A stretch of DNA of 64,000 nucleotides from Acuticoccus sediminis (lineage in GTDB: Bacteria; Pseudomonadota; Alphaproteobacteria; Rhizobiales; Amorphaceae). The stretch covers positions 310,001 through 374,000 of the forward strand of contig NZ_QHHQ01000005.1 in assembly GCF_003258595.1 (NCBI RefSeq), read 5' to 3'. The position numbers and the translations under genes were made by a program. Shown in pieces: positions 17,397 to 63,573 of this stretch. Position 1 is the first letter of the stretch; the number at the start of each line of letters is the position of its first letter. The notes below the pieces were generated by a model that made no database searches, had not been told where the DNA came from, and saw only the letters and a list, made by a program, of their open reading frames with translations.

Positions 17397-17882
17397 TTAG
17401 CCCCTGATCGGGTAATCGAGGGCCCTCAGGCGGTCCAGCGCGCCCTGCAGGATGATCGTCGCCGCCATCTTGTCGATGGATTCGCGGCGCTTGGCGCGTG
17501 ACGTGTCCGTCTCGATCAGCGCCCGCTCCGCCGCCACCGTCGACCACCGCTCGTCCCACGCCACCATCGGCCGCTCCGAGAGCTTGGCCATGTTGCGCGC
17601 GAAGTCGCGCGTCGACTGCGCCCGCGGGCCGGACGTGCCGTCCATGTTGAGCGGCAGGCCGACGACGAAGGCGGTCACGTTGTAGCGCGTGGCGAGGTCG
17701 AGGAGCGCGGTCGAGTCCGCCTTGAACTTGGTGCGGCGGATCGTGTGCAGCGGGGTCGCGATGCGCCAGCCCTCGTCGGACACCGCGATGCCGATGGTCT
17801 TCGTCCCGAAGTCGAGGCCGAACAGCGCGCCCCTCAGGTGGCCGATGTCCTCGATCGGGGTGAACGGTCCCGGCGCCGTCAT
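17397..17882 (-). CDS. ruvX: Holliday-junction-resolvase-like protein / pre-16S rRNA nuclease RuvX (YqgF)
   Basis: The 161-residue product of the YqgF/RuvX family has an RNase H-like fold and matures the 5' end of 16S rRNA. The first acidic site lies in [15 protein letters not shown], the second in [12 protein letters not shown], and the third in [16 protein letters not shown]. It is slightly longer at the N terminus than the E. coli protein. Its ATG overlaps the stop of the deacetylase-like gene upstream (ATGA), so it is translated as the last gene of the leftward glycosyltransferase run. Confidence 0.93.
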
Positions 17883-18589
17883 GACGCGAACAGCCGGGCC
17901 GCGTCGGTCCAGACCGCCCCGGGGTGCCTTGCCACCAGACTTGCGAACCGCGCCACGAAATCGACCACAGCATCCGTCTCCACCGCGTGATGCGTCAGAA
18001 GACCGATCGGGCCGCCGACCGCAAGCCCCCGTGTCACCATCGCCGCCAGCGCCTCGTCAGGCGCGAGCGAGCGGTCGCCGCGCCAGGCGATCGGGTCGAT
18101 GTGCGTGTCGACCCGCCGGATCGGCTCGAACGCCTCCCCCTCGCCGAACCGCGACACGCCGCGGTAGCCCGCGTCCCGCAGCGCGGCGGCGAGATCGGGG
18201 CGCATCCGGTTCCAGGGCGGCACCATCACGGGAACGAAGCTCGGCCCCTCGAGGCGGGCACGCAGGGCGACCAGCTCCTCGACGATCTCCTCCAGCGGAC
18301 GGGCATCGCCCAGCTCCGCCTTCTTGCCCGAGGCCTGGTGGTTGCGGTGCGCCGCGCCGTGTTGCACCACGTCGACCCGCCGCTCGCACCACGCGAGGAG
18401 ATGGGAGTGGACGTCGGCCGGGATCACCGCGAGCGCGACCCTGGCGCCGGTGCGCTCGGCGAGGGCCACCATGCGTTCCAGCCGCGGGCCGATCACCACC
18501 GCGTCGTCGTCGCGCCACCAGACCTCGACCCGGCGGCCGGTGTCGGCGGCGGCGTCGAACGCCCGCTCCAGAAGCCTCAGCGCCTGCAT
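17879..18589 (-). CDS. Polysaccharide-deacetylase-like protein
   Basis: The 236-residue product has the layout of a NodB-like (CE4) deacetylase. A WWRDDDAV stretch carries the acidic metal/catalytic residues, HGAAHRNHQ matches the metal-binding His region, PPWNRM is the motif-3 proline segment, and LLTHHAVE sits near the end. In characterised members such enzymes remove acetyl groups from polysaccharides. It has no signal peptide, so it would act in the cytoplasm or on a lipid-linked intermediate. The start at 18589 overlaps the end of the preceding glycosyltransferase gene by 13 bases. The surrounding genes suggest a role in making a surface glycan. Confidence 0.78.
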
Positions 18590-19773
18590 GCGGCCTCCGC
18601 GACGAGGATGTCCGCCGACCGGGCGGCACCGTCGAGGTCGATCTCGGGGCGGGCGGGCGGCGGGGCGGCCATGGCGCTCGCAACCGCCCCGGCGAGGCGC
18701 GACGCCGTCAGGTCCCGCTCGGCGATCACCGCCGCGAGACCCCTCGCGGCGAGGGCGCGGGCGCGGTCGGTCTGCTCGGTCTCGTCGTGCGCCGCGAACG
18801 GCACGAAGATGGCCCGGACGCCCGCCGCCAGGACGTCGAGCGCGGTGTTGTAGCCGGCCTGGCTGATCGAGATCGCCGCGCGGCCGAGAAGCGCCCGGAA
18901 GTCCGGCCGGTTCGGCTCCAGGAGGACGTTGCCCGGCGCCGCGGCCCGCCACTCCGGCAGCAGCGGCATGAGGCCCCGGGGGACGAGGATGCGCCATTGG
19001 AGCGAGGGACCCTGCGCCGCCGCACCGATGGCCGCCTCCACCAGTGCCCGGCCGACCGCACCGCCGCCGCAGGAGACGATCGCCTCCCCCGCGCCGTCGG
19101 TGCCGCCGTCGTCGGGCGCGGCCGTGCTGTGGACGAAGCCGGTGTAGCGGATCATGTCCTCGATGGCGGCCGCGGCGGGGAAGCTGTCGGCCAGCGTCAC
19201 GAACCGCGGGTCGGCGTGGACCAGCACGATGTCGAGGGTGGCGCGGGCGAGGTCCGTCATCGCGGCGGCCTTGCCGGCGGACTTCTTCACAAGGACGTCG
19301 CGCACGGACGCGGCGACCAGCGGGCGCGGCACCGGAAGCGCCTCGAGGACGGGAAGGATCTCGGCCGCGAAGGCGCGCCGTCCGAGTGGGAAGGTCTCGA
19401 GGAGCAGGATGTCCGGGCGGACCGTGTCCACGACCTGCGCAAACGCCGCGGCGCGGCTCGCCGCGATGTCGCGGTAGGCGACGCCGCCGGCGGTCGCGAT
19501 GGTGGCGAAGGTGGCGTCCGTCGCCACCACCGGCTCGAGCCGGGCGACGCGGAGGCCGTGAAGATCGAGCGTCGGCGGCGGCGTCGCGCCGAGGACGAGG
19601 GTGACCTCGGTCCCGCGCGCCGCAAGCGCGTGCGCGATCGCCGCCGCGCGCACGGTGTGTCCGGTGCCGAGAAGGTGCTGGACCCAGATGACGGCACGGG
19701 TCGCCCCGCCGCCGACCGCGCCGGGCCGTGTTGCTGCGGGCGGTGCTGCTGCGGGCGGTGTCGCTCCGGTCAT
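18577..19773 (-). CDS. MurG-like (GT28-type) glycosyltransferase
   Basis: The 398-residue product has the GT-B layout. After an Ala/Pro-rich N-terminal stretch comes WVQHLLGTGHTVRAAAIAHALAARG, the acceptor-domain glycine loop, and the C-terminal donor domain has VSCGGGAVGRALVE and AGYNTALDVLAAGVRAIFVPF, resembling the MurG nucleotide-sugar site. Sugar and acceptor are unknown. Its ATG overlaps the stop of the next gene upstream (ATGA at 19770-19773). It is the fourth glycosyltransferase in order of transcription of the leftward cluster, followed by the deacetylase-like gene. Confidence 0.8.
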   Translation of the reverse strand: MTGATPPAAAPPAATRPGAVGGGATRAVIWVQHLLGTGHTVRAAAIAHALAARGTEVTLVLGATPPPTLDLHGLRVARLEPVVATDATFATIATAGGVAYRDIAASRAAAFAQVVDTVRPDILLLETFPLGRRAFAAEILPVLEALPVPRPLVAASVRDVLVKKSAGKAAAMTDLARATLDIVLVHADPRFVTLADSFPAAAAIEDMIRYTGFVHSTAAPDDGGTDGAGEAIVSCGGGAVGRALVEAAIGAAAQGPSLQWRILVPRGLMPLLPEWRAAAPGNVLLEPNRPDFRALLGRAAISISQAGYNTALDVLAAGVRAIFVPFAAHDETEQTDRARALAARGLAAVIAERDLTASRLAGAVASAMAAPPPARPEIDLDGAARSADILVAEAACRR

Positions 19774-20846
19774 GGGCGCGCGCCCACCATCGCCGCCCGC
19801 TTCATCAGCTCCGTGAGACGCGAGAGGCCGGCGGCGAGGTCGTTCGCGGCCGCGAACGCGGCGGCGTTGCGGGACATCGCCGCGAGCCGCGCCGGATCGT
19901 CGAGGAGCGACAGGACCGCCCCGGCGATGGCGTCCGGGTCGCCGGGGTCGACGAGGATGCCGGTCTCGCCGTCCCTGACGATGTCCACCACGCCGGGCGA
20001 GCGGCCGCCGACCACCGGCAATCCCGCCGCCTGCGCCTCCAGGAACGCGAAACCGAAGGGCTCGTCGATCGCCGGCCACACGAAGAGGGACGAACGGGCG
20101 AAGAGGTCGGCGAGCGCCTCCTGGTCGAGGAGGCCGCAGAAGGTCCCGGGGGGGAACAGCGGCTCGAGCGCGTCCCGCTCCGGGCCCTCGCCCGCGAGGG
20201 TGAGGGTCGCGCCGGGCCGGGCGGCGCGGATCCTGGCGTAGGCGTCGGCGAGGACGCGCACGCTGTCGGCCTTGCGCCCCGGCCGCAGCATCGCCGCGCA
20301 GGCGAGGGTTTCGGGGACGCGCCCGGCCGAAGCGCGGAAGGGAGCGACGTCCACGAAGGGCGGCACGCGCATCACCTTGTCCGGCGCGAAGGCGGACAGC
20401 GCCGCCGCGTCGTGCTCCGTCACCGCGCCGAGCGCGCCGGCGATCGACAGCGCCCGGTCGGCGAGGGCGAAGCCCCGCGCCCAGGGGCCCCTCGCCCGCT
20501 TCTCGGCGCGGCTCGCCTCGACGATGGCGTAGGGGCAGCCGAACAGCCGGGCGAGCGGCGGCCCGAGGAGATCTGGCGCCTTGTGGTAGTTGTGGTAGGT
20601 GAGGATCGCGTCGGGCGCGAGCCCGCGCAGCCACGTGTCGGCGATGCGCCCCACCTCGGCGGACGCCTCGGCCTCCACCGCGGCGAGATCGTCGGGCGTG
20701 CGGCACCATGTGCGCAGCGTCGAGGGCAGCACGACATCATGGCCGCCGGCCTCCAGCGCCGCGCGGATCAGTCTCGCGAAGGTGCGGTCGCCCGAAGGCA
20801 CCGGGTGGTCCGGCGGCTTCATCGGCGTCAGAAGCGCGATCCGCAT
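19770..20846 (-). CDS. GT4-family glycosyltransferase
   Basis: The 358-residue GT-B enzyme is recognisable by DRTFARLIRAALEAGGHDV in the acceptor half and by DEPFGFAFLEAQAAGLPVV, the E-x7-E donor-binding signature of family GT4. The start at 20846 overlaps the preceding gene's stop (TGATG). GT4 enzymes retain the anomeric configuration and use nucleotide sugars; the sugar cannot be told. It acts presumably on the cytoplasmic side of the inner membrane together with its three glycosyltransferase neighbours. Confidence 0.83.
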   Translation of the reverse strand: MRIALLTPMKPPDHPVPSGDRTFARLIRAALEAGGHDVVLPSTLRTWCRTPDDLAAVEAEASAEVGRIADTWLRGLAPDAILTYHNYHKAPDLLGPPLARLFGCPYAIVEASRAEKRARGPWARGFALADRALSIAGALGAVTEHDAAALSAFAPDKVMRVPPFVDVAPFRASAGRVPETLACAAMLRPGRKADSVRVLADAYARIRAARPGATLTLAGEGPERDALEPLFPPGTFCGLLDQEALADLFARSSLFVWPAIDEPFGFAFLEAQAAGLPVVGGRSPGVVDIVRDGETGILVDPGDPDAIAGAVLSLLDDPARLAAMSRNAAAFAAANDLAAGLSRLTELMKRAAMVGARP

Positions 20847-22060
20847 CAGGCCGCCTGGCGGGCCGACATCGTCTGTGTGAGGCGCGCGGCGATGTGGTCG
20901 AGGCCGGGGTCCGGCGAGAAATGCGACGTGACGCGGGCGGCCCCGGCCTGGCCGAGCCGGGTGCGCGTCTCCGGCGACGCCGCGAGGTCGGCGAGCGCCT
21001 TGCCGAGCGCCGCGGCGTCGCGCGGCGGGACCAGGATGCCCGTCTCCGCGGTGACGATCTCCGGCACGGCCGAGACCTCGGTCGAGACCACCGGCAGCCC
21101 CATCGCCATCGCCTCCATGATGACGTTGGGGAGACCGTCCCGGTCGCCGTTCCTGGCGATGCGGCTCGCCAGCACGAAGACGTCGGCCCGCCTGTAGGCC
21201 GCCACGACGTCCTCGCGCGGCAGCGCGCCGAGGAAGGCGATGCGGTCGGCGATCCCGAGCCGTTCGGCGAGCCCGGTGAGGTCCTTCACCAGGCCGCCGC
21301 CGCCGACATGCTCGAACCGCCAGTCGACGTCGAGCCTCGCGAGTGCCCTGAAGACGTCGTCGAGGCCCTTCTTCTCCACCGCGCGGCAGACCGAGAGGAT
21401 GCGCAGCGGCCCCTCTCCGCGCTTCGCCTCGGGATGGAACAGCGAAAGGTCGAGGCCGTGGTAGACGAGGTCCACGCTCCGGCCCCTCGGCGCCAGGCGG
21501 TCGAGGACGTCGCGGTTCGCGGCGGTACAGGTGGTGCCCCACTCCGCGTCGGCGATCTTCTCCCGCAGGTCCCACTCCGGCGTCGTGTAGATGTCCTTGG
21601 CGTGGGCCGAGAAGGCGTAGGGCACGCCCGTCATCAGCGAGGCGTAGCGGGCGACCGAGGCCGGGGTGTGGAGGTAGTGGACGTAGATCGCCCCCGTCCC
21701 TTCCGGGAGTTCCGCGGCGAGGACGGCGGCCTGCCCCCAGCGGCGCCGGCGGCTCGCCGAGGGATCGCGCTCCAGGTCGCGGCGGTAGGCGGCCTCGGCG
21801 CGGGCATAGCCGGGGAGACCCTCGGCGATGCGCCGCGCGGCCCTCACGCGGGCGGGGTCGTCCTTCAGGTACTCCGGCAGGTAGAGCACCGGCGCGGTGA
21901 TCTGCCGGTGCACCTCGTGGACCGCGCTCTCCGTCGGGTGGCGCAGCGACACGATGGTGAGGTCGATCCCGCGGCGCTGGAGGCCGAGGATCTCCTGGGC
22001 GATGAAGGTTTCCGACAGGCGCGGATAGCCCTTCACCACGACGGCGACGCGACCTCCCAT
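20846..22060 (-). CDS. GT4-family glycosyltransferase, colanic-acid/WcaL type
   Basis: From the ATG at 22060 the product has 404 residues; a longer frame to 22156 would only add sequence encoded opposite its neighbour's end. The beginning VVVKGYPRLSETFIAQEILGL is typical of exopolysaccharide GT4 enzymes, and the donor site is NGDRDGLPNVIMEAMAMGLPVV. HYLHTPASVARYASLMTGVPYAFSAHAKDIY also matches this branch. Its start overlaps the previous gene's stop (TGATG). It is one of four tandem glycosyltransferases, so it likely adds one sugar in an exported glycan. Confidence 0.85.
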   Translation of the reverse strand: MGGRVAVVVKGYPRLSETFIAQEILGLQRRGIDLTIVSLRHPTESAVHEVHRQITAPVLYLPEYLKDDPARVRAARRIAEGLPGYARAEAAYRRDLERDPSASRRRRWGQAAVLAAELPEGTGAIYVHYLHTPASVARYASLMTGVPYAFSAHAKDIYTTPEWDLREKIADAEWGTTCTAANRDVLDRLAPRGRSVDLVYHGLDLSLFHPEAKRGEGPLRILSVCRAVEKKGLDDVFRALARLDVDWRFEHVGGGGLVKDLTGLAERLGIADRIAFLGALPREDVVAAYRRADVFVLASRIARNGDRDGLPNVIMEAMAMGLPVVSTEVSAVPEIVTAETGILVPPRDAAALGKALADLAASPETRTRLGQAGAARVTSHFSPDPGLDHIAARLTQTMSARQAA

Positions 22061-23283
22061 CAGCGCACGAGGCTCAGGCGGCTGTAGTGGGGCATGCGCG
22101 TCTTGCGGTGGGACAGGATCTCCTCGGTCCGCGCATTGATGGTTTCGAGGCCGCACAGAAGCTCGTCGAAGCCTGCGGCGGAGGGGGGCTGGCGTTCAGG
22201 CAGCTCGGCGAGCGCGTCGACCATTCGCTCCACGTTGGGGTAGTCGTCGATGGGAAGGCACGTGAGAAGTCCTGCCGCCTCCGCCTTGCGGGCACGGATC
22301 GCCTGCTCGCGCCGGGGCACGACACGCGGCACCAGCAGCGTCGGTTTGTCGAACGACAGGATCTCGCAGAAGATGTTGTAGCCGCCCATGCCGACGATCG
22401 CGGTCGCCTCGTTCATCAGCTTCTCGATCACCGGGGTGAAGCGGATGACGTGGACGTCGCGCAGCGCCTCGGCGCGGGCCTTGAACTCGGCCTGCTTCTC
22501 CGTCGGCATGAAGGGGCCGAGGACGACGAGGGCGGGGAAGAGCGGTCGCTCGTGCGCCTCGTAGGCGCGCAGCACCCAGTCGACGAGCTCCATCCCGTCG
22601 CCGCCGCCGCCGGGCGTCACGAGGATGAAGGGCTCCTCGTCGAACGGGTTCAGCTCGGCGGTGGAGTCCCCGTTGGGCAGCTCCCGCTTCAGGTAGCCGG
22701 TGTACAGCATCTTGTCGCGCACGCCGTCGGGGACGCAGACGCCCTCCAGCGGGTCGTGCACCTCGGCTTTGCCGTAGACCCAGATCTCGTCGTAGAGCTC
22801 CTCGAGCGCCGCGACGGCGTGCTTGCGCTCCCACTCGTCGGCGAGGCTCGCCGGGTCGTCCATGACGTCGCGCAGGCCGAGGACGAGGCGGCAGCGACGC
22901 TCCTTCAGCATCTCGAGCGTGGGCTGCACCTCGCCGCGCAGGCCGAGCGGCTCCTTGTCGACGATGACGATGTCGGGATCGAAGACGTCGGCCGTGTGCT
23001 CGATGATCGACGCGCGCAGGCGCAGCATCTCCTCGATCCCGAGCGAAAGGGAATGTGATGAGTAGGCGCCGTCGCGGAGCTTGATTACGCCCGGCACGCG
23101 CACGAAATCCACCCGCGACCGGAAATCGAAGCTGCCAATGATCGGGGATCCGGACAGGATGATGACGGACAGCGTATCCATGGCACCGACCATGGAATGC
23201 GCGATCGCCCGGCAACGTCGCAAGTGTCCCAACCCGAACGAATCGTGCGAATAGATCAGGATGCGGGGATGATTGTTCGGCAT
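22060..23283 (-). CDS. Predicted glycosyltransferase, GT28-like, first gene of the leftward cluster
   Basis: The 407-residue product starts with ILIYSHDSFGLGHLRRCRAIAHSM, the GLGH loop of GT28-type and related glycosyltransferases. Its C-terminal half has GMGGYNIFCEILSFDKPTLLVPR, a typical donor-binding segment for such enzymes. The spacing of 207 bp to the divergent ABC transporter gene indicates a shared control region. Every gene after it (three glycosyltransferases, deacetylase-like protein, ruvX) overlaps its predecessor, which makes this the leader of a six-gene transcript. Donor and acceptor are unknown. Confidence 0.82.
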   Translation of the reverse strand: MPNNHPRILIYSHDSFGLGHLRRCRAIAHSMVGAMDTLSVIILSGSPIIGSFDFRSRVDFVRVPGVIKLRDGAYSSHSLSLGIEEMLRLRASIIEHTADVFDPDIVIVDKEPLGLRGEVQPTLEMLKERRCRLVLGLRDVMDDPASLADEWERKHAVAALEELYDEIWVYGKAEVHDPLEGVCVPDGVRDKMLYTGYLKRELPNGDSTAELNPFDEEPFILVTPGGGGDGMELVDWVLRAYEAHERPLFPALVVLGPFMPTEKQAEFKARAEALRDVHVIRFTPVIEKLMNEATAIVGMGGYNIFCEILSFDKPTLLVPRVVPRREQAIRARKAEAAGLLTCLPIDDYPNVERMVDALAELPERQPPSAAGFDELLCGLETINARTEEILSHRKTRMPHYSRLSLVR

Positions 23284-23490: not shown

Positions 23491-26112
23491 ATGGAACGAA
23501 ACCTCTTCGGCTTTATTTGGCGCTATTCCAAGCGTCAGCAGATCGTCATCCTCGCGCTGACGGTATGCTCGTTCCCCATCCTCTACATGACACTGGAACT
23601 GCCGAAGTGGATCGTCAATGACGCGATCTCCGGCACCGATTTCCCCAAGATGTTCTGGGGTTTCGAACTGGGGCAGATCCCCTACCTGATCGCCCTCTGC
23701 GCCTGCTTCCTCTTCCTCGTGGTCGCCAACAACGGCGTCAAGTACACCCTCAACATCTACAAGGGCATCGCCGGCGAACGCATGCTGCGGCGCCTGCGCT
23801 TCATGCTCTACAACTCCATCCTGCGGTTCCGGCTCCCGCGGTTCCGCAGGGTGTCGGGCGGCGAGCTGATCCCGATGATCACCGCCGAGGTGGAGGACGT
23901 CGGCGTCTTCATCGGCGAGGCGATCGCGACCCCCGCCTTCCAGGGCGGCACGCTCCTCGTCTACACGGTCTTCATCTTCGCCCAGGACCCCTTCCTGGGC
24001 GCCGCCGCGATCTCGCTCTACCCGATCCAGGGCTACATCATCCCGAAGCTGCAGAAGCGGGTGATCCAGCTCTCGCGCGAGCGCATCATCAATATCCGCG
24101 CCATCTCCGAACGCATCAACGAGACGGTGAGCGCGGCCGCCGACATCCATGCCAACGACACGTCCCGCTGGCACATGGCGGACCTGTCGGACCGACTGTT
24201 CCTCAACTATCGGATCCGGCTGGCGATTTTCCGCCGCAAGTACATGATTAAGTTCATCAATAATTTCATGAACCAGCTGCCGCCGTTCTTCTTCTATTCG
24301 GTCGGCGGCTACCTCGTGATCCAGGGCAACCTGTCCTTCGGTGCGCTCGTCGCGGTGCTGGCGGCCTACAAGGACCTCGCCTCGCCGTGGAAGGAGCTGC
24401 TCGACTGGTATCAGACCCTCGCCGGCGTGAAGGTGAAGTACGAGACCGTCGTCGAGAACTTCGACGTCGACGACGCGATGCCGCCGGAGCGGATCAAAGG
24501 TGAGCCCGACGGCCCGATCGAGCTCACCAGCCTCGACCTCGCCCTCAACTCCGTCTCGGCGAGCGGCGGCGGCAGCGGGCAGGAGATCATCGACGTCACG
24601 CTGGAGGTGGAGTACGGCAACCGCCTCGCGGTCTACGGCGCCGACGGCTCGGGCCGGACCGAGCTCGTCATGAGCCTGTGCGGCCTGCTGAGCCCCATGG
24701 CCGGGCGCAGCACCATCGGCGGCCGCCGCTTCGACGACCTGCCGCATCAGACCATCGCCCGGCACATCTCCTACGTCGGCTCCGACCCCTACCTCTTCAA
24801 CGAGACGATCCGCTCCAACATCGTCTACGGCCTCAGGACCGACCCGATCGAGGAGGACGGCGACCACCTCGCGGACCTGCGCCAGGTCGAGGCCTCGCTC
24901 ACCGGCAACTCGCTGCACGACATCTCCGCGACGTGGGAGGATCTCAGCCGCGCCGGCGTCGACGCGCAGGACGAGTTCGACGACATGCTGATCGAGCTCG
25001 TCCAGCTCGTCGGGCTGGAGGCCGACCTCTACCGGCTCGGCCTCGCGTCCTACTCGTTCGAGAACCGCGACCCCGGATTCGACGAGAAGATCCTGAAGGC
25101 CCGGGCCGACGTCGTGCGCCGCGTCCAGGAGGACAAGAGCTGGAAGGGCCTCGTCGCCCTGTGGGACCGGGACGGCTTCAACCACTCCGCGACGATCGGC
25201 GAGAACGTGCTCTACGGCGTCCCCAAGACCGTCGGCACGCCGGTGTGGTCGGCCGCGTCGGACCCGGCGGTCATGAACGCGCTCGTCAAGGCGGGCATCG
25301 CCGACCGGCTCGTCGGCATGGGCGCCGATGTCGCAGCCACCATGATCGAGCTGTTTTCCGACACCGGCGCCGATGCCTCGCTGATCGGCGACTACTCGTT
25401 CCTGTCGGCGGAGGAGATCCCGCAGTTCACCGAGCGCCTGCGCCGCCACAAGGCGGGAGAGGACCTCTCCAAGGCGGACCGGGCGAGCTTCGTGGGGCTG
25501 GCGTTCCGGATCATTCCGGGCCGTCACCGCATTGTCACGCTGACGGAGCAAGACGAGCAGCAGATGGTCGAGGCCCGCGGCGTCATCCACGAGACGCTGA
25601 AGGACGACCCGAACTACGCCCTATTCGACGCCAACACAGTGATCGCCCCCCTGTCCATCGAAGAGAACATCCTGTTCGGCAAGCCGCGCGTCGACCGCCG
25701 CGGCGCCTCGGACAAGATCGACGCGCTGCTGCGCGACACCACCCGTGCGCTGGGCCTGCGCGAGCCCATCGCCAGGGCCGGCCTCAACTTCAACGTCGGC
25801 ATTGCCGGCGGCCGGCTCTCGTCCGGACAGCGCCGCCGCGTCGGCCTGATCCGCGCGCTCGTCAAGAAACCCGAAATTCTCATCCTCGACAGCGTGGTCG
25901 ACGGGGACCGTCAGCTCCTCTCGCGCGTTCTGGGTGCAGTACAGTCGAGCACAGTCGTCGTCGGGACCACGGATCCGAAGGTCGCTGAAGCCATGGAATC
26001 GGTCGCAGTCATGCGTGATGGCAGGTTGGTTGCACGCGGTCGATGGGATAGCGTGAAGAACATCGCCGTCTACGGCGAAGATGACGAAGCTCGGGAGAAG
26101 GAGGCGTCATGA
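23491..26112 (+). CDS. ABC exporter-like protein with an expanded, altered nucleotide-binding domain
   Basis: This 873-residue protein has an exporter-type membrane domain (about residues 1-320) fused to an ATPase domain of about 530 residues, more than twice the usual size. Walker A is GADGSGRT (383-390), with Arg for Lys; the signature is LSSGQRRR (776-783); Walker B is ILILDS (796-801), with Ser in place of the catalytic Glu; and the H-loop region reads VVVGTTDP, with no His. The Q-loop region (HISYVGSDPYLFNETIRSN) at about 425 is followed by some 320 extra residues before the signature, containing two further ENVLYG/ENILFG segments. The start at 23491 follows AAAGGG. The gene overlaps the next by ATGA. 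Export of a glycan is inferred from the divergent glycosyltransferases only. Confidence 0.85.
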   Translation: MERNLFGFIWRYSKRQQIVILALTVCSFPILYMTLELPKWIVNDAISGTDFPKMFWGFELGQIPYLIALCACFLFLVVANNGVKYTLNIYKGIAGERMLRRLRFMLYNSILRFRLPRFRRVSGGELIPMITAEVEDVGVFIGEAIATPAFQGGTLLVYTVFIFAQDPFLGAAAISLYPIQGYIIPKLQKRVIQLSRERIINIRAISERINETVSAAADIHANDTSRWHMADLSDRLFLNYRIRLAIFRRKYMIKFINNFMNQLPPFFFYSVGGYLVIQGNLSFGALVAVLAAYKDLASPWKELLDWYQTLAGVKVKYETVVENFDVDDAMPPERIKGEPDGPIELTSLDLALNSVSASGGGSGQEIIDVTLEVEYGNRLAVYGADGSGRTELVMSLCGLLSPMAGRSTIGGRRFDDLPHQTIARHISYVGSDPYLFNETIRSNIVYGLRTDPIEEDGDHLADLRQVEASLTGNSLHDISATWEDLSRAGVDAQDEFDDMLIELVQLVGLEADLYRLGLASYSFENRDPGFDEKILKARADVVRRVQEDKSWKGLVALWDRDGFNHSATIGENVLYGVPKTVGTPVWSAASDPAVMNALVKAGIADRLVGMGADVAATMIELFSDTGADASLIGDYSFLSAEEIPQFTERLRRHKAGEDLSKADRASFVGLAFRIIPGRHRIVTLTEQDEQQMVEARGVIHETLKDDPNYALFDANTVIAPLSIEENILFGKPRVDRRGASDKIDALLRDTTRALGLREPIARAGLNFNVGIAGGRLSSGQRRRVGLIRALVKKPEILILDSVVDGDRQLLSRVLGAVQSSTVVVGTTDPKVAEAMESVAVMRDGRLVARGRWDSVKNIAVYGEDDEAREKEAS

Positions 26113-26567
26113 GCATCGACACGGACGCCGCCGCGCTCCGCAAGATCCCGCTGTTCCGCGGGATCGAAGACCAAAAGCTCCGACTCCTGGCCTTCATGTC
26201 CGAGCGCGTGCGGTTCGACGAAGGCGAAAACCTCGTCGAAGAAGGCGACTTCGGCGACGTCGCCTACATCATCCTCTCCGGCCGGGCCGATGTCCTGGTC
26301 GGCTCCCCCAGCGGGGAACAACTGGTGGCCACCGTCTCGGAGAACGACTTCGTCGGCGAAATCGCTCTCCTGATCGACGTGCCCCGAACCGCCACCGTAC
26401 GAGCGACATCCGACGTCGTCGCGCTGGCGGTCACCAAGGAACACTTCTTCAAGCTCCTCAGCAACTTCCCGGACATGGCGCTGGAGGTGATGCGGGCCCT
26501 GGCCCATCGTCTGGAGCGAACGACCCGCGAATTCGGCCGCCTGCGCGCCGCGGTTGCCAACACGTGA
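26109..26567 (+). CDS. Cyclic-nucleotide-binding-domain protein
   Basis: The 152-residue protein consists almost only of a cNMP-binding (CAP_ED) beta barrel: PLFRGIEDQKLRLLAFM at the start, FDEGENLVEEGDFGDVAYIILSGRADV in the barrel, and the phosphate-binding cassette FVGEIALLIDVPRTATVRA (about residues 81-99), with the Glu and Arg that contact the ribose and cyclic phosphate. It has no DNA-binding domain, so it probably acts by protein contact. It overlaps both neighbours (ATGA with the ABC gene, GTGA with the hydrolase gene), so the three products should be made together. The ligand (cAMP, cGMP or other) is not decided by sequence. Confidence 0.9.
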   Translation: MSIDTDAAALRKIPLFRGIEDQKLRLLAFMSERVRFDEGENLVEEGDFGDVAYIILSGRADVLVGSPSGEQLVATVSENDFVGEIALLIDVPRTATVRATSDVVALAVTKEHFFKLLSNFPDMALEVMRALAHRLERTTREFGRLRAAVANT

Positions 26568-27439
26568 CGAAGCGCAACCCCGACACGCTCTCGCTGACCA
26601 TCTGGGGCGCCCGCGGCTCGATCCCGGCGCCCGGCCCGCACACCCTGCGCTACGGCGGCGAGACGACGTGTCTGGAGATCCGCGCCGGATCGCATGTCCT
26701 CCTGATCGACTGCGGCTCCGGGGCGCGAAGCTGCGGCGCCGCCTTCGCCCAGGAGGGCATCGAGCAGCTCGACGTCCTGTTCACGCACACGCACATGGAC
26801 CACCTGTGCGGGCTGCCGTTCTTCTGCTCCGCCTACGACCCCAACTGCGCCGTCAGCCTGTGGGCCGGCCACATCCCCCCCGGCGGCACGCTGGAGGAGA
26901 TCGTCGAGCGGATGATGAGCCCGCCGATCTTCCCCGTCGCGACCTCGGCGCTGCGCAACACGGTGTTCCGCTCCTTCCGCGCCCGCCAGACCTTCACCCT
27001 CGACTCCGGCCTTTCGATCGCCTCGACCCGGCTGAACCACCCCGGCAACGGCTGCGGCTACCGGATCGAGTGGGGCGGCTCCTCGATCGCGATCATCACC
27101 GACCACGAGCACGGCGACGACATGATCGACGACGCCATCGCCGAGTTCGTGACCGGCGCCGACCTCATGATCTACGACGCGATGTACCTCGAGGAGGAAT
27201 ACCCGAAGTACGTCGGCTGGGGCCATTCGACGCCGACGCAGGCGCTCGACCTCGCCGCCCGCGCGGGTGTCGCGATCCCGATGATCTTCCACCACGACCC
27301 GTCCCGCAGCGACGACGCGCTCGACATGGTGGCGCGCGAGGTCGCGACGCAGCTCCCCGGCGCCCAGGTGGCCACCCAGGGGCAGACGATCCACCTGACG
27401 AACGGCAAGGTCGAGATCGGCACCAGCCGCGCCGCCTGA
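26564..27439 (+). CDS. Metallo-beta-lactamase-fold hydrolase
   Basis: The 291-residue product starts at a GTG overlapping the cNMP gene's stop. The metal-binding motif is THTHMDHLCG (HxHxDH, about residues 65-74). Later metal ligands are likely in LNHPGNGCGYRIEWG and ITDHEHGDD, with a final HHDPSRSDD. The opening LTIWGARGSIPAPGP...YGGETTC is typical of the RNase Z/PhnP-like branch, which includes phosphodiesterases. Because it is encoded with a cyclic-nucleotide sensor, a phosphodiesterase acting on a cyclic nucleotide or phosphodiester is attractive, but this is inference. It has no signal peptide, so it is probably cytoplasmic. Confidence 0.87.
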   Translation: MTKRNPDTLSLTIWGARGSIPAPGPHTLRYGGETTCLEIRAGSHVLLIDCGSGARSCGAAFAQEGIEQLDVLFTHTHMDHLCGLPFFCSAYDPNCAVSLWAGHIPPGGTLEEIVERMMSPPIFPVATSALRNTVFRSFRARQTFTLDSGLSIASTRLNHPGNGCGYRIEWGGSSIAIITDHEHGDDMIDDAIAEFVTGADLMIYDAMYLEEEYPKYVGWGHSTPTQALDLAARAGVAIPMIFHHDPSRSDDALDMVAREVATQLPGAQVATQGQTIHLTNGKVEIGTSRAA

Positions 27440-61569: not shown

Positions 61570-62301
61570 GTGCCCGATAGCTGTTTGGTCGCCAAGCTGG
61601 GTCGGTTTGCCGCGTTGTCGGAGGCCGACGAGCTGATGCTCGCGGCGCTGGAGAAAGAGGAACGCGAGTATCGCAAGGACGAGATCGTGATCCGTTCCGG
61701 CGGCTCGGTCACGGAACTCTACGTCGTCAAGTCGGGTTGGCTCGCCTCTTATTCGTTGCTGGACGATGGACGTCGGCAGATCTTGCGATTGTTCTATCCC
61801 GGGGACATCGTGGACCTGTCGGAGATCGCGTTGGTGGTGTCGCGGCATGACATCAAGTGCCTGACGGCGACGGTCCTTTGCCCATTTCCAAAGGCCGGGC
61901 TGGAGCCAGTGTTCACCCACTCGCCGCGGCTTACGGCGCTCCTTTTCTCCATGACCGTGCGCGAGAACGCGACGCTGCTCGACCGGATCCGCGCCATCGG
62001 CCGGTTCAGCGCCTACGAGCGGGTGTGCTATCTCATCCTCGAGATCGCCTTCCGGCTCGACGCGACGGACGAGAACTCGGCGAGCCGCGACTTCCGCGTG
62101 CCGCTGACGCAGAGCGACATTGCCGACTTGCTCGGCCTCACCAACGTCTACGTCTCCAAGACGATGTCGCGGATCGAGAACGACGGGCTGATCAGCCGTG
62201 ACGGCAACCGCATCAGGATCCTCAAGCTCCGGACGATGGCGGAGCTCTGCAACTTCAACGGCGACCCGCACATCGATTCGAGCTGGTTTCCGGTCAAGTG
62301 A
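61570..62301 (+). CDS. Crp/Fnr-family transcription regulator
   Basis: The 243-residue regulator has an N-terminal cNMP-type barrel (about residues 15-130: YRKDEIVIRSGGSVTELYVVKSGWLAS, then FYPGDIVDLSEIAL) and a C-terminal HTH_Crp domain (PLTQSDIADLLGLTNVYVSKTMSRIENDGLI). Cys residues at about 6, 98, 106 and 152 do not match the four-Cys FNR pattern, so oxygen sensing by an iron-sulphur cluster is not evident, and the cassette has none of the key cAMP residues. The effector is unknown. It stands 39 bases before a carotenoid-type glycosyltransferase gene and so may regulate it. Confidence 0.88.
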   Translation: MPDSCLVAKLGRFAALSEADELMLAALEKEEREYRKDEIVIRSGGSVTELYVVKSGWLASYSLLDDGRRQILRLFYPGDIVDLSEIALVVSRHDIKCLTATVLCPFPKAGLEPVFTHSPRLTALLFSMTVRENATLLDRIRAIGRFSAYERVCYLILEIAFRLDATDENSASRDFRVPLTQSDIADLLGLTNVYVSKTMSRIENDGLISRDGNRIRILKLRTMAELCNFNGDPHIDSSWFPVK

Positions 62302-62340
62302 TGCGCTGAGGCGCGCATCCGCGGCCGCGCGGGTGGCGCC

Positions 62341-63573
62341 GTGAGGGTCGTCTTCGCCAGCCACGGCTCGCTCGGCGACCTTGTGCCGTTCCTGGAGATC
62401 GGCAAGGCGCTCGCGGCCCGCGGCCACACCGCGACGGTGGCGACCCATCCGGCGCATCGCGCCAGCGTCGCCGCCGCCGGGCTCGGCTTCGCGCCGATGC
62501 GCCCGGACCGGCCGGACGATCCCGCCTTCCACGCCCGCTTCATGCACCCGCGCCGCGGCCCCGCCTTCGCCTACACCAGGTATCTCGGCCCGGCGGTCGC
62601 GGCGAGCGACGCCGACCTTTCCGCCGCGGTGGCGGGCGCCGACGTCCTCGTCAGCGTGACGCTCGCACTCGCCGCGCCGATCGTCGCCGCGCGCACGGGG
62701 GTGCCGTGGCTCTCCGCGGCGTTCCAGCCGGCGATGCTCTACAGCGCGCTCGACCCGCCCCGCCTCGCGATGCTCCCCCTCGTGCGCGGCTGGCCGCAGT
62801 ACAACGCGCGCGTGCTCGCCTACGCCGAGAAGGGCGTCGAGGCCTGGGCCGCGCCGCTTCGCGCCTACCGCGCCGCCGCCGGCCTCGGCGACTACCCCGC
62901 CCACCCCGCCTTCCGTGGCCAGCATTCGCCCGATGGCGTGCTGGCGCTCTACTCCCCCCTCTTCGGCCCGGTGCCGGCGGACGCGCCGCGCGGCACCGTC
63001 CAGACCGGACAGGTGCTGCAGACCGGCAGCCCGCCGCTCGATCCGCGGATCGCCGACTTCCTGGCGGACGGCGAGCCGCCCGTGGTCTTCACCCTCGGCT
63101 CCGCCTCCGCCCACGTCGCCCGCCGCTTCTTCGAGGACAGCGCCCGCGCCGCGCGCCGCCTCGGCGTGCGTGCCCTCCTCCTCGCCGGGGGCGCGGGCGC
63201 AGGTCGCGATCTGCCGTCCGATCCGGCGCTCATGGTCGCGGGAAGCGCGCCCTACCAGGCCGTCTTCCCGCATGCGGCAGCGGTGGTGCACCAGGGCGGA
63301 ATCGGCACGATCGCGCTCGCGATGGCGGCCGGCGTGCCGATGGTCGCCGTTCCCTTCTCCCACGACCAGCCCGACAATGCGGCCCGCGCGGCCCGGGCGG
63401 GCGTGGCGCGGGTCGTGCCTCGCTGGCGCTACCGTCTCTCCGCTGCGCCGATCCTCCGACAGGTCCTGGACGACGGCGGGATGCGGGCGACCAGCGCCCG
63501 TCTCGCCCCGCTGATCGCAGCCGAGAACGGCGCGGAGCGGGCGGCGGACGCGATTATCGCCGCCGCGCGCTGA
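62341..63573 (+). CDS. UGT-like (GT1) glycosyltransferase, possible carotenoid glycosyltransferase
   Basis: The 410-residue GT-B enzyme has FASHGSLGDLVPFLEIGKALAARGH at the start and the GT1 donor signature HQGGIGTIALAMAAGVPMVAVPFSHDQPDNA near residues 320-350. This resembles CrtX-type zeaxanthin glucosyltransferases and macrolide/sterol glycosyltransferases. The adjacent crtY gene makes a carotenoid acceptor plausible, but this is context only. It starts at GTG 62341. Its stop touches the crtY stop directly (TGATCA at 63571-63576). Confidence 0.82.
   Translation: MRVVFASHGSLGDLVPFLEIGKALAARGHTATVATHPAHRASVAAAGLGFAPMRPDRPDDPAFHARFMHPRRGPAFAYTRYLGPAVAASDADLSAAVAGADVLVSVTLALAAPIVAARTGVPWLSAAFQPAMLYSALDPPRLAMLPLVRGWPQYNARVLAYAEKGVEAWAAPLRAYRAAAGLGDYPAHPAFRGQHSPDGVLALYSPLFGPVPADAPRGTVQTGQVLQTGSPPLDPRIADFLADGEPPVVFTLGSASAHVARRFFEDSARAARRLGVRALLLAGGAGAGRDLPSDPALMVAGSAPYQAVFPHAAAVVHQGGIGTIALAMAAGVPMVAVPFSHDQPDNAARAARAGVARVVPRWRYRLSAAPILRQVLDDGGMRATSARLAPLIAAENGAERAADAIIAAAR

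Follow-up and report, generated by a model that had tools for sequence, protein, structure and literature searches.

A putative surface-polysaccharide ABC transporter of Acuticoccus sediminis with three post-Q-loop segments and a cyclic-nucleotide-binding partner

What can an ATP-binding cassette (ABC) exporter do when its nucleotide-binding domain (NBD) has been greatly enlarged and most of its catalytic residues have been replaced? This question is raised by a gene at 23491..26112 of a 64,000-nucleotide stretch of the Acuticoccus sediminis genome (contig NZ_QHHQ01000005.1, positions 310,001 to 374,000 of the forward strand), which we call the window and in which positions are counted from the first nucleotide. 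The NBD of the encoded protein holds three copies of the segment that follows the Q-loop, each with an Asn that does not vary in the family, whereas the catalytic residues are eroded. A cyclic-nucleotide-binding (cNMP) domain accompanies every family member analyzed, and the locus matches a Sinorhizobium meliloti gene cluster for a surface polysaccharide provisionally named PPP, phazolicin-protecting polysaccharide. Judging from these sequences, we consider the chances about even that the protein is an inner-membrane exporter or flippase of a PPP-type surface polysaccharide, a cyclic-nucleotide-linked ABC protein with an ATPase domain rebuilt to carry three docking segments.

The three repeats of the nucleotide-binding domain

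The gene and the parts of its product are laid out as follows (aa, amino acids).

23491..26112, plus strand: ABC exporter half, 873 aa, in a single frame from the ATG at 23491 to the stop at 26112
23416, plus strand: GTG, a possible alternative start of this gene
23491..24465, plus strand: transmembrane domain, approximately residues 1-325, from Pfam and column entropy
24637..24660, plus strand: Walker A GADGSGRT, residues 383-390, with Arg389 at the Lys position
24769..24798, plus strand: Q-loop region SYVGSDPYLF, residues 427-436, with Ser431 for Gln
24805..25044, plus strand: repeat 1 (R1), residues 439-518, from TIRSNIVYG to GLEADLYRLGL
25066..25323, plus strand: repeat 2 (R2), residues 526-611, with the Arg538 helix, a strand, TIGENVLYG and helices to GIADRLVGMG
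25324..25533, plus strand: helical bundle linking R2 and R3, residues 612-681
25534..25785, plus strand: repeat 3 (R3), residues 682-765, with the Arg696 helix, a strand, SIEENILFG and helices into the signature
25807..25842, plus strand: signature region GGRLSSGQRRRV, residues 773-784
25876..25893, plus strand: Walker B ILILDS, residues 796-801, with Ser801 at the Glu position
25957..25974, plus strand: H-loop region VVGTTD, residues 823-828, with Thr827 for His

The domain order is that of ABC exporters such as MsbA, CydC, P-glycoprotein, and TmrAB. Pfam ABC_membrane matches residues 61-290 with 54.7 bits (cut-off, 28), and ABC_tran matches in two separate stretches with 67.8 bits (cut-off, 25). 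The highest NCBIfam scores, those for CydC (123.3 of 329.05 bits) and MsbA (122.7 of 602 bits), lie under the curated cut-offs, as do the scores for all of the best 25 of 153 NCBIfam families. Compared with ordinary ABC exporters, the window protein has eroded catalytic residues, two further copies of the post-Q-loop segment, and about 285-290 extra residues: from N443, after the Q-loop, to G773 of the signature there are 331 residues, and nine canonical exporters encoded in this genome (those of its eleven other ABC_membrane loci that passed a motif filter) have 42-47 residues over that span. A preliminary description of this gene, made from the DNA letters and their translation, had put the excess at some 320 residues; the large insert is real, and that figure is somewhat too high. 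It had also suggested looking for homologues with the same extra length. We compared the window protein with 58 full-length homologues that share 31-53% identity with it, and over these 59 sequences the span is 312-411 residues, with a median of 339. Relatives that consist of the membrane domain only (L002, L003, L064, and L068) and a partial protein from the end of a contig (L015) were left out of the alignment. The loci are the best matches of each search (up to 30), and they therefore lean to closer relatives.

The three motifs that the preliminary description had picked out, TIRSNIVYG (residues 439-447), TIGENVLYG (568-576), and LSIEENILFG (721-730), were placed exactly, together with the three stretches in which they end, and the self-alignment by hidden Markov models that it had proposed confirms that they belong to genuine repeats. 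When profiles of R1 (418-530), R2 (526-640), and R3 (682-785) from the 59-sequence alignment were compared with hhalign, R2 matched R3 with a probability of 99.1% (E value, 4.6e-19; 82 columns), and the probabilities were 93.9% for R1 with R2 and 87.4% for R1 with R3. For each repeat pair, all of 150 column shuffles scored below the observed value, and among the 378 non-overlapping pairs of 100-residue windows of the whole protein the repeat pairs fill the top 18 places. Asn443, Asn572, and Asn726 are unchanged in all 59 sequences. Farther upstream, R2 and R3 have in common an Arg-bearing helix (R538 in 59/59 sequences and R696 in 58/59) and a strand, and because of this they form an extended tandem duplication. 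The demonstrable repeat unit, found in R1, R2, and R3, is the 'TI..NI.YG' segment with the next one or two helices.

In ABC exporters, the post-Q-loop segment runs into the helical subdomain, and the preliminary description had concluded that this subdomain seems to be triplicated. What holds is that a Q-loop/helical segment occurs three times. In profile comparisons, the canonical Q-loop-to-signature segment matched R1 with 97.8% (32 columns) and R3 with 96.0% (67 columns, reaching the signature), and it matched R2 more weakly, with 61% (24 columns); the control comparisons stayed below 3%. In a separate comparison, the control 'gap23' scored 99% against S2 since the two overlap by design, and it was set aside. 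Neither the profile comparison nor the predicted model revealed any similarity of the bundle at residues 612-681 to the canonical segment. An AlphaFold model of the insert alone (residues 522-775) had a predicted local distance difference test score (pLDDT) of 88.2 and a predicted template modeling score of 0.86, and in it R2 and R3 both consist of a helix, strand, short helix, strand, helix, and helix. A Foldseek search with this model gave no PDB match at an E value of at most 0.001, and therefore three whole canonical subdomains are not established; the best rows, nuclear receptor domains at an E value of 0.7, were regarded as noise. In the model of the full-length protein the membrane domain is poor (mean pLDDT, 70.5), and therefore we build no claim on its domain arrangement. 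Foldseek ranked ABC exporters first for this model, with E values of about 1e-15 and low TM-scores (query-normalized, 0.15-0.26 among the matches listed), and the matches listed include P-glycoprotein, BSEP, TmrAB, and Sav1866. The idea of an unrelated enzyme inserted in the ABC domain is unsupported, because the repeats make up much of the insert; Pfam at an E value of at most 1 gives ABC_membrane and ABC_tran alone.

We take the repeated segment to align with the stretch of NBD1 of CFTR (ABCC7) that holds F508. Each NBD of CFTR contains a single copy of this segment; CFTR is not known to have a cNMP domain, and it is regulated through phosphorylation. One of its two sites does not hydrolyze ATP, and the protein works as a gated channel; for the window protein there is, unlike for CFTR, no evidence of channel function here. 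F508 of CFTR sits at the interface with intracellular loop 4 (PMC3434365), and the tripled element would therefore, by homology, help to form the face that receives the coupling helices. R2 and R3 may be docking sites as well.

Catalytic residues and conservation in the family

Of the catalytic Lys, Gln, Asp, Glu, and His, the window protein retains only Asp800. The replacement of the Walker A Lys by Arg389, of the Walker B Glu by Ser801, and of the H-loop His by Thr827 had been noticed at the outset and is borne out, and the loss of the Q-loop Gln (Ser431) had been overlooked. The same erosion runs through the family. The Walker A Lys is found in 21/59 sequences (Arg in 25 and Ala in 10), the Q-loop Gln in 6, the Walker B Asp in 18 (Asn in 30), the Walker B Glu in 29, and the H-loop His in 17; no sequence has all five together, two have Lys, Asp, Glu, and His, and all five are missing from the S. 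meliloti counterpart. When 503 nine-residue windows covering residues 340-850 of the 59-sequence alignment were ranked by conservation, the R2 motif came first, R3 7th, and R1 30th, and Walker B ranked 190th and Walker A 238th. Mean column entropy was 1.38 in the transmembrane domain (residues 10-310) and 2.14 in the NBD core (340-438). Taken together, the ranks and entropies suggest selection on the membrane domain and the repeats rather than on the hydrolysis site. The window protein may have lost ATP hydrolysis, and the earlier suggestion of a regulatory or non-hydrolyzing ABC machine is thus plausible and strengthened by the family-wide erosion, with the loss itself read from the residues. 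As a separate observation, residues 1-330 contain 43 alignment columns with one residue in at least 58/59 sequences, and in the window protein many of these are charged (K84, E96, R100, R101, R103, E125, E133, R198, R203, and R243).

A catalytically poor protein could also be one half of a heterodimeric exporter, with the functional ATP site contributed by a canonical half from an unlinked gene and the insert doing no more than modulate assembly. Pairing of a degenerate with a working site is stated for CFTR and several relatives (PMC3434365), and the eleven other ABC_membrane matches of the genome would offer candidate partners. However, a further exporter half was recognized, by a rough hydrophobicity rule and a canonical ATP domain, in just 1 of 27 wide loci (L084), and the Q-loop and the signature, the latter serving the site of the partner, vary too. 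Moreover, when 385 genomes of the class were sampled, 127 of them, the own genome included, had a match to the ABC protein at an E value of at most 1e-100, and 125 of these had one match, in a search that scored two candidates per genome. We therefore regard a heterodimer of this kind as unlikely.

The family is present in numerous bacteria of soil and sea, and in a third of the genomes sampled from its class. In a sample of the phylum, 22/299 genomes matched (E value of at most 1e-60), 21 of them in the same class, the own genome among them, and the one match outside the class is membrane-domain-only. Plasmid records matching at an E value of at most 1e-30 numbered 345, and in 262 of these the match covered 80% of the protein or more. 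The ten genera most often represented among the 345 are alphaproteobacterial, and twelve more genera match. The four relatives without an ATP-binding domain in frame have 28-42% identity and 316-339 aa after trimming, and two of them, L002 (G000:C1:1154525-1155439) and L003 (G000:C15:22764-23642), lie in the own genome in unrelated surroundings. In the open-access literature, as far as it was surveyed, a paper on this protein family or on a tripled post-Q-loop segment was not found; PMC6858071, PMC10945364, and PMC5539429 came up and, to judge from their available parts, deal with other genes.

The cyclic-nucleotide-binding partner and the glycan genes

The ABC gene is the first in a row of three, and glycan genes run divergently from it (ORF, open reading frame; MBL, metallo-beta-lactamase).

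26109..26567, plus strand: cyclic-nucleotide-binding protein, 152 aa, with cNMP_binding at residues 34-119 and the motif FVGEIALLIDVPRTATV; overlaps the stop codon of the ABC gene
26564..27439, plus strand: MBL-fold hydrolase (Lactamase_B_2), 291 aa, third gene in the row
22060..23283, minus strand: glycosyltransferase (Glyco_tran_28_C), first of the divergent glycan row
20846..22156 (ORF ends), minus strand: group-4-like glycosyltransferase, 49% identical to an S. meliloti glycosyltransferase family 4 gene
19770..21575 (ORF; 5' end probably shorter), minus strand: second group-4-like glycosyltransferase, 41% to SMb21252 as counted below
18577..20709 (ORF; 5' end probably shorter), minus strand: second family-28-like glycosyltransferase, 39% to SMb21265 as counted below
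17879..18997 (ORF), minus strand: polysaccharide deacetylase-like gene, 34% to an S. meliloti polysaccharide deacetylase

The preliminary description missed both the cNMP partner and the polysaccharide locus. The cNMP domain (PF00027) is the single Pfam match of the 26109 protein, and the nearest solved structures are domains of cGMP- and cAMP-dependent kinases. The constancy of this partner is a new observation of our analysis: the domain accompanies the ABC protein in 59/59 cases, 51 times as a neighboring gene within the fetched flank and 8 times as a C-terminal fusion. L027 and L029, with a cNMP match outside the ABC gene, were counted as separate, and L059, which is cut by the end of its locus, could be recognized as fused through L108 and is not among the 58 rows in which the phosphate-binding motif was counted. 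In these rows, Gly and Arg are present in 58/58, Glu in 53/58, and Asp in 4/58; the Glu and Arg of this motif have a phosphate-binding role. The 26109 protein has the motif, GE...PR, and may bind a cyclic nucleotide. An independent Crp-type regulator is disfavored by its length of 152 aa, its lone cNMP domain, and the exporter fusions.

Coupling of an exporter to a domain of this type has a published precedent in HetC of Nostoc, a peptidase-containing ABC exporter that depends for its function on a fused domain of the cNMP type (PMC10986499). In HetC, the domain is N-terminal, unlike in the present family, and it bound ppGpp, whereas cAMP gave no significant protection; the catalytic Glu is required, a peptidase domain is present, and a tripled segment is not mentioned in the parts of the paper available (PMC10986499). 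The window ABC protein has no Pfam match to a C39 peptidase at an E value of at most 1.

Among 27 wide loci, 8 contained a nucleotide cyclase and 9 an MBL hydrolase, as detected with models built from six cyclase sequences of five loci and from five MBL sequences; since the models were drawn from the same loci, those loci match by construction. The cyclase model found nothing in the window. In the own genome, a cyclase homologous to that of L009 (48%, over residues 20-447 of 450) is encoded on another contig (G000:C8:23233-24513). In L009, L010, L011, and L013, a nucleotide cyclase stands downstream of the ABC, cNMP, and MBL genes.

With its eroded ATPase site and well-conserved sensor, the protein might be no transporter at all, and instead a membrane signaling scaffold that senses a cyclic nucleotide and switches polysaccharide synthesis on, the ABC fold being a hinge. 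The membrane-domain-only relatives would fit such a role. We consider it very unlikely, as conservation is highest in the transmembrane domain, which still resembles the exporter families, and as another exporter half lies beside the ABC gene in just the one wide locus mentioned above (non-ABC exporters were not searched for).

The cargo is suggested by the surrounding genes. The first divergent glycosyltransferase has a homologue in 14/22 wide loci, although not always an adjacent one. Counterparts with 34-54% identity to eight window genes are present in the S. meliloti cluster: four glycosyltransferases, the deacetylase, the MBL hydrolase, the ABC protein, and the cNMP protein. In strain R28, this stretch of pSymB is annotated with a glycosyltransferase, a deacetylase, an MBL hydrolase, a nucleotide-sugar dehydrogenase, a cyclase, a lyase, a peptide-type importer, three glycosyltransferases, a methyltransferase, and the ABC and cNMP genes. 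Thus, the PPP cluster has eight genes in common with the window locus, and it differs in the annotated importer, dehydrogenase, lyase, and cyclase. Beside the window ABC gene, neither a peptide-type importer nor a cyclase was seen, nor a nucleotide-sugar dehydrogenase or a lyase, for neither of which a model search was made. A peptide-type ABC importer (an ATPase of about 580-630 aa, a substrate-binding protein, and two permeases) is annotated near ABC/glycan genes in L090, L112, and L114, and in L093 the ATPase and the substrate-binding protein alone lie in the stretch.

Counting genes from SMb21248 (aminotransferase) and SMb21249 (sulfotransferase), the anchors named in PMC5498481, places a glycosyltransferase at SMb21252 and a 'glycosyltransferase family protein' at SMb21265, in agreement with the naming in PMC10128002. 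The same count, which gives one tag to an unlisted gene between Q1M62_09010 and Q1M62_09020, makes the ABC gene SMb21267 and the cNMP gene SMb21268. Nine genes in smb21252-smb21271 are needed for the uncharacterized surface polysaccharide PPP (PMC10128002), and mutants in smb21252 and smb21265 were about 8 times more sensitive to phazolicin, with a minimal inhibitory concentration (MIC) of 0.18 compared to 1.47 ug/mL (PMC10128002). Insertions in the adenylate cyclase gene cyaA were depleted in the same phazolicin screen (PMC10128002). The ABC gene, which may be one of the nine, is tied to PPP here through the match of the clusters, and the window ABC protein may export a polysaccharide.

The same neighborhood is compatible with an ordinary ATP-driven polysaccharide exporter that tolerates odd residues, with an insert that docks glycosyltransferases and a cNMP protein that is a modest regulator. 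The divergent genes are indeed glycosyltransferases, and residues at the positions of Glu801 and Lys389 are kept in 29/59 and 21/59 sequences. Against this, Walker A is no more conserved than the middle of the domain, and the S. meliloti counterpart does without all five catalytic residues. We find an ordinary exporter doubtful.

Farther away, the window contains at 61570-63573 a Crp-like frame (243 aa) with, immediately after it, a glycosyltransferase-like frame (410 aa), both judged by eye.

Possible mechanism and meaning

For the cyclic-nucleotide-linked exporter that we favor, a mechanism can be suggested, which is tentative and in our view unlikely as stated. It would be a cyclic-nucleotide-operated ABC transporter, in which ATP hydrolysis no longer serves as power stroke or gate and the triplicated F508-type segment is the lever by which the cAMP- or cGMP-binding subunit moves the transmembrane domain, thereby releasing or flipping the surface polysaccharide. 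On the broader reading, which has about even chances, the transmembrane domain is of the ordinary ABC-exporter type and strongly constrained, the NBD would have largely given up ATP hydrolysis, and the post-Q-loop segment, part of the surface docking the transmembrane coupling helices, would have been multiplied to three. The cNMP subunit, encoded by the next gene or fused at the C terminus, would bind cAMP or cGMP and set the state of the transmembrane domain through the platform built by the repeats. Transport may thus be coupled to a cyclic nucleotide, the repeats may dock the coupling helices or the sensor, and control would presumably run from the sensor to the membrane domain.

Several points weigh against the exporter that we favor and its operation by a cyclic nucleotide. 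Glu and Lys persist in the numbers given above, and therefore some lineages may still hydrolyze ATP; the ABC-like core persists as well, and therefore ATP may be bound. All 59 sequences were weighted equally, close relatives among them. A cyclase was not detected in 19/27 wide loci, the S. meliloti cluster cyclase is distant from that of L009 (29% over 157 residues), cyaA is smc00339 and thus other than the cluster cyclase (PMC10128002), and a single cyaA mutant was little changed (MIC, 0.74 compared to 1.47; PMC10128002). The first divergent glycosyltransferase has no homologue in 8/22 wide loci, and the S. meliloti locus tags come from counting genes. The ABC counterpart on pSymB of S. meliloti 1021 (L094, 11962-14713) is two overlapping frames in the reference sequence, whereas in strain R28 it is one frame of 903 aa; as PMC10128002 deals with Sm1021, the cluster phenotype may not depend on the ABC gene. 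An experiment on the window ABC protein was not found in the open-access literature.

ABC transporters are defined by their ATPase, and here the membrane part and the docking segment are tightly selected and the ATPase residues are drifting. The family may therefore show, as an experiment of nature, whether anything besides ATP hydrolysis can drive or gate an ABC transmembrane domain. On the alignment that we assume, it also offers a natural threefold copy of the segment that is hit in cystic fibrosis. For the bacteria themselves, the locus is a candidate link between cyclic-nucleotide signaling and a surface polysaccharide that may protect rhizobia against an antimicrobial peptide.

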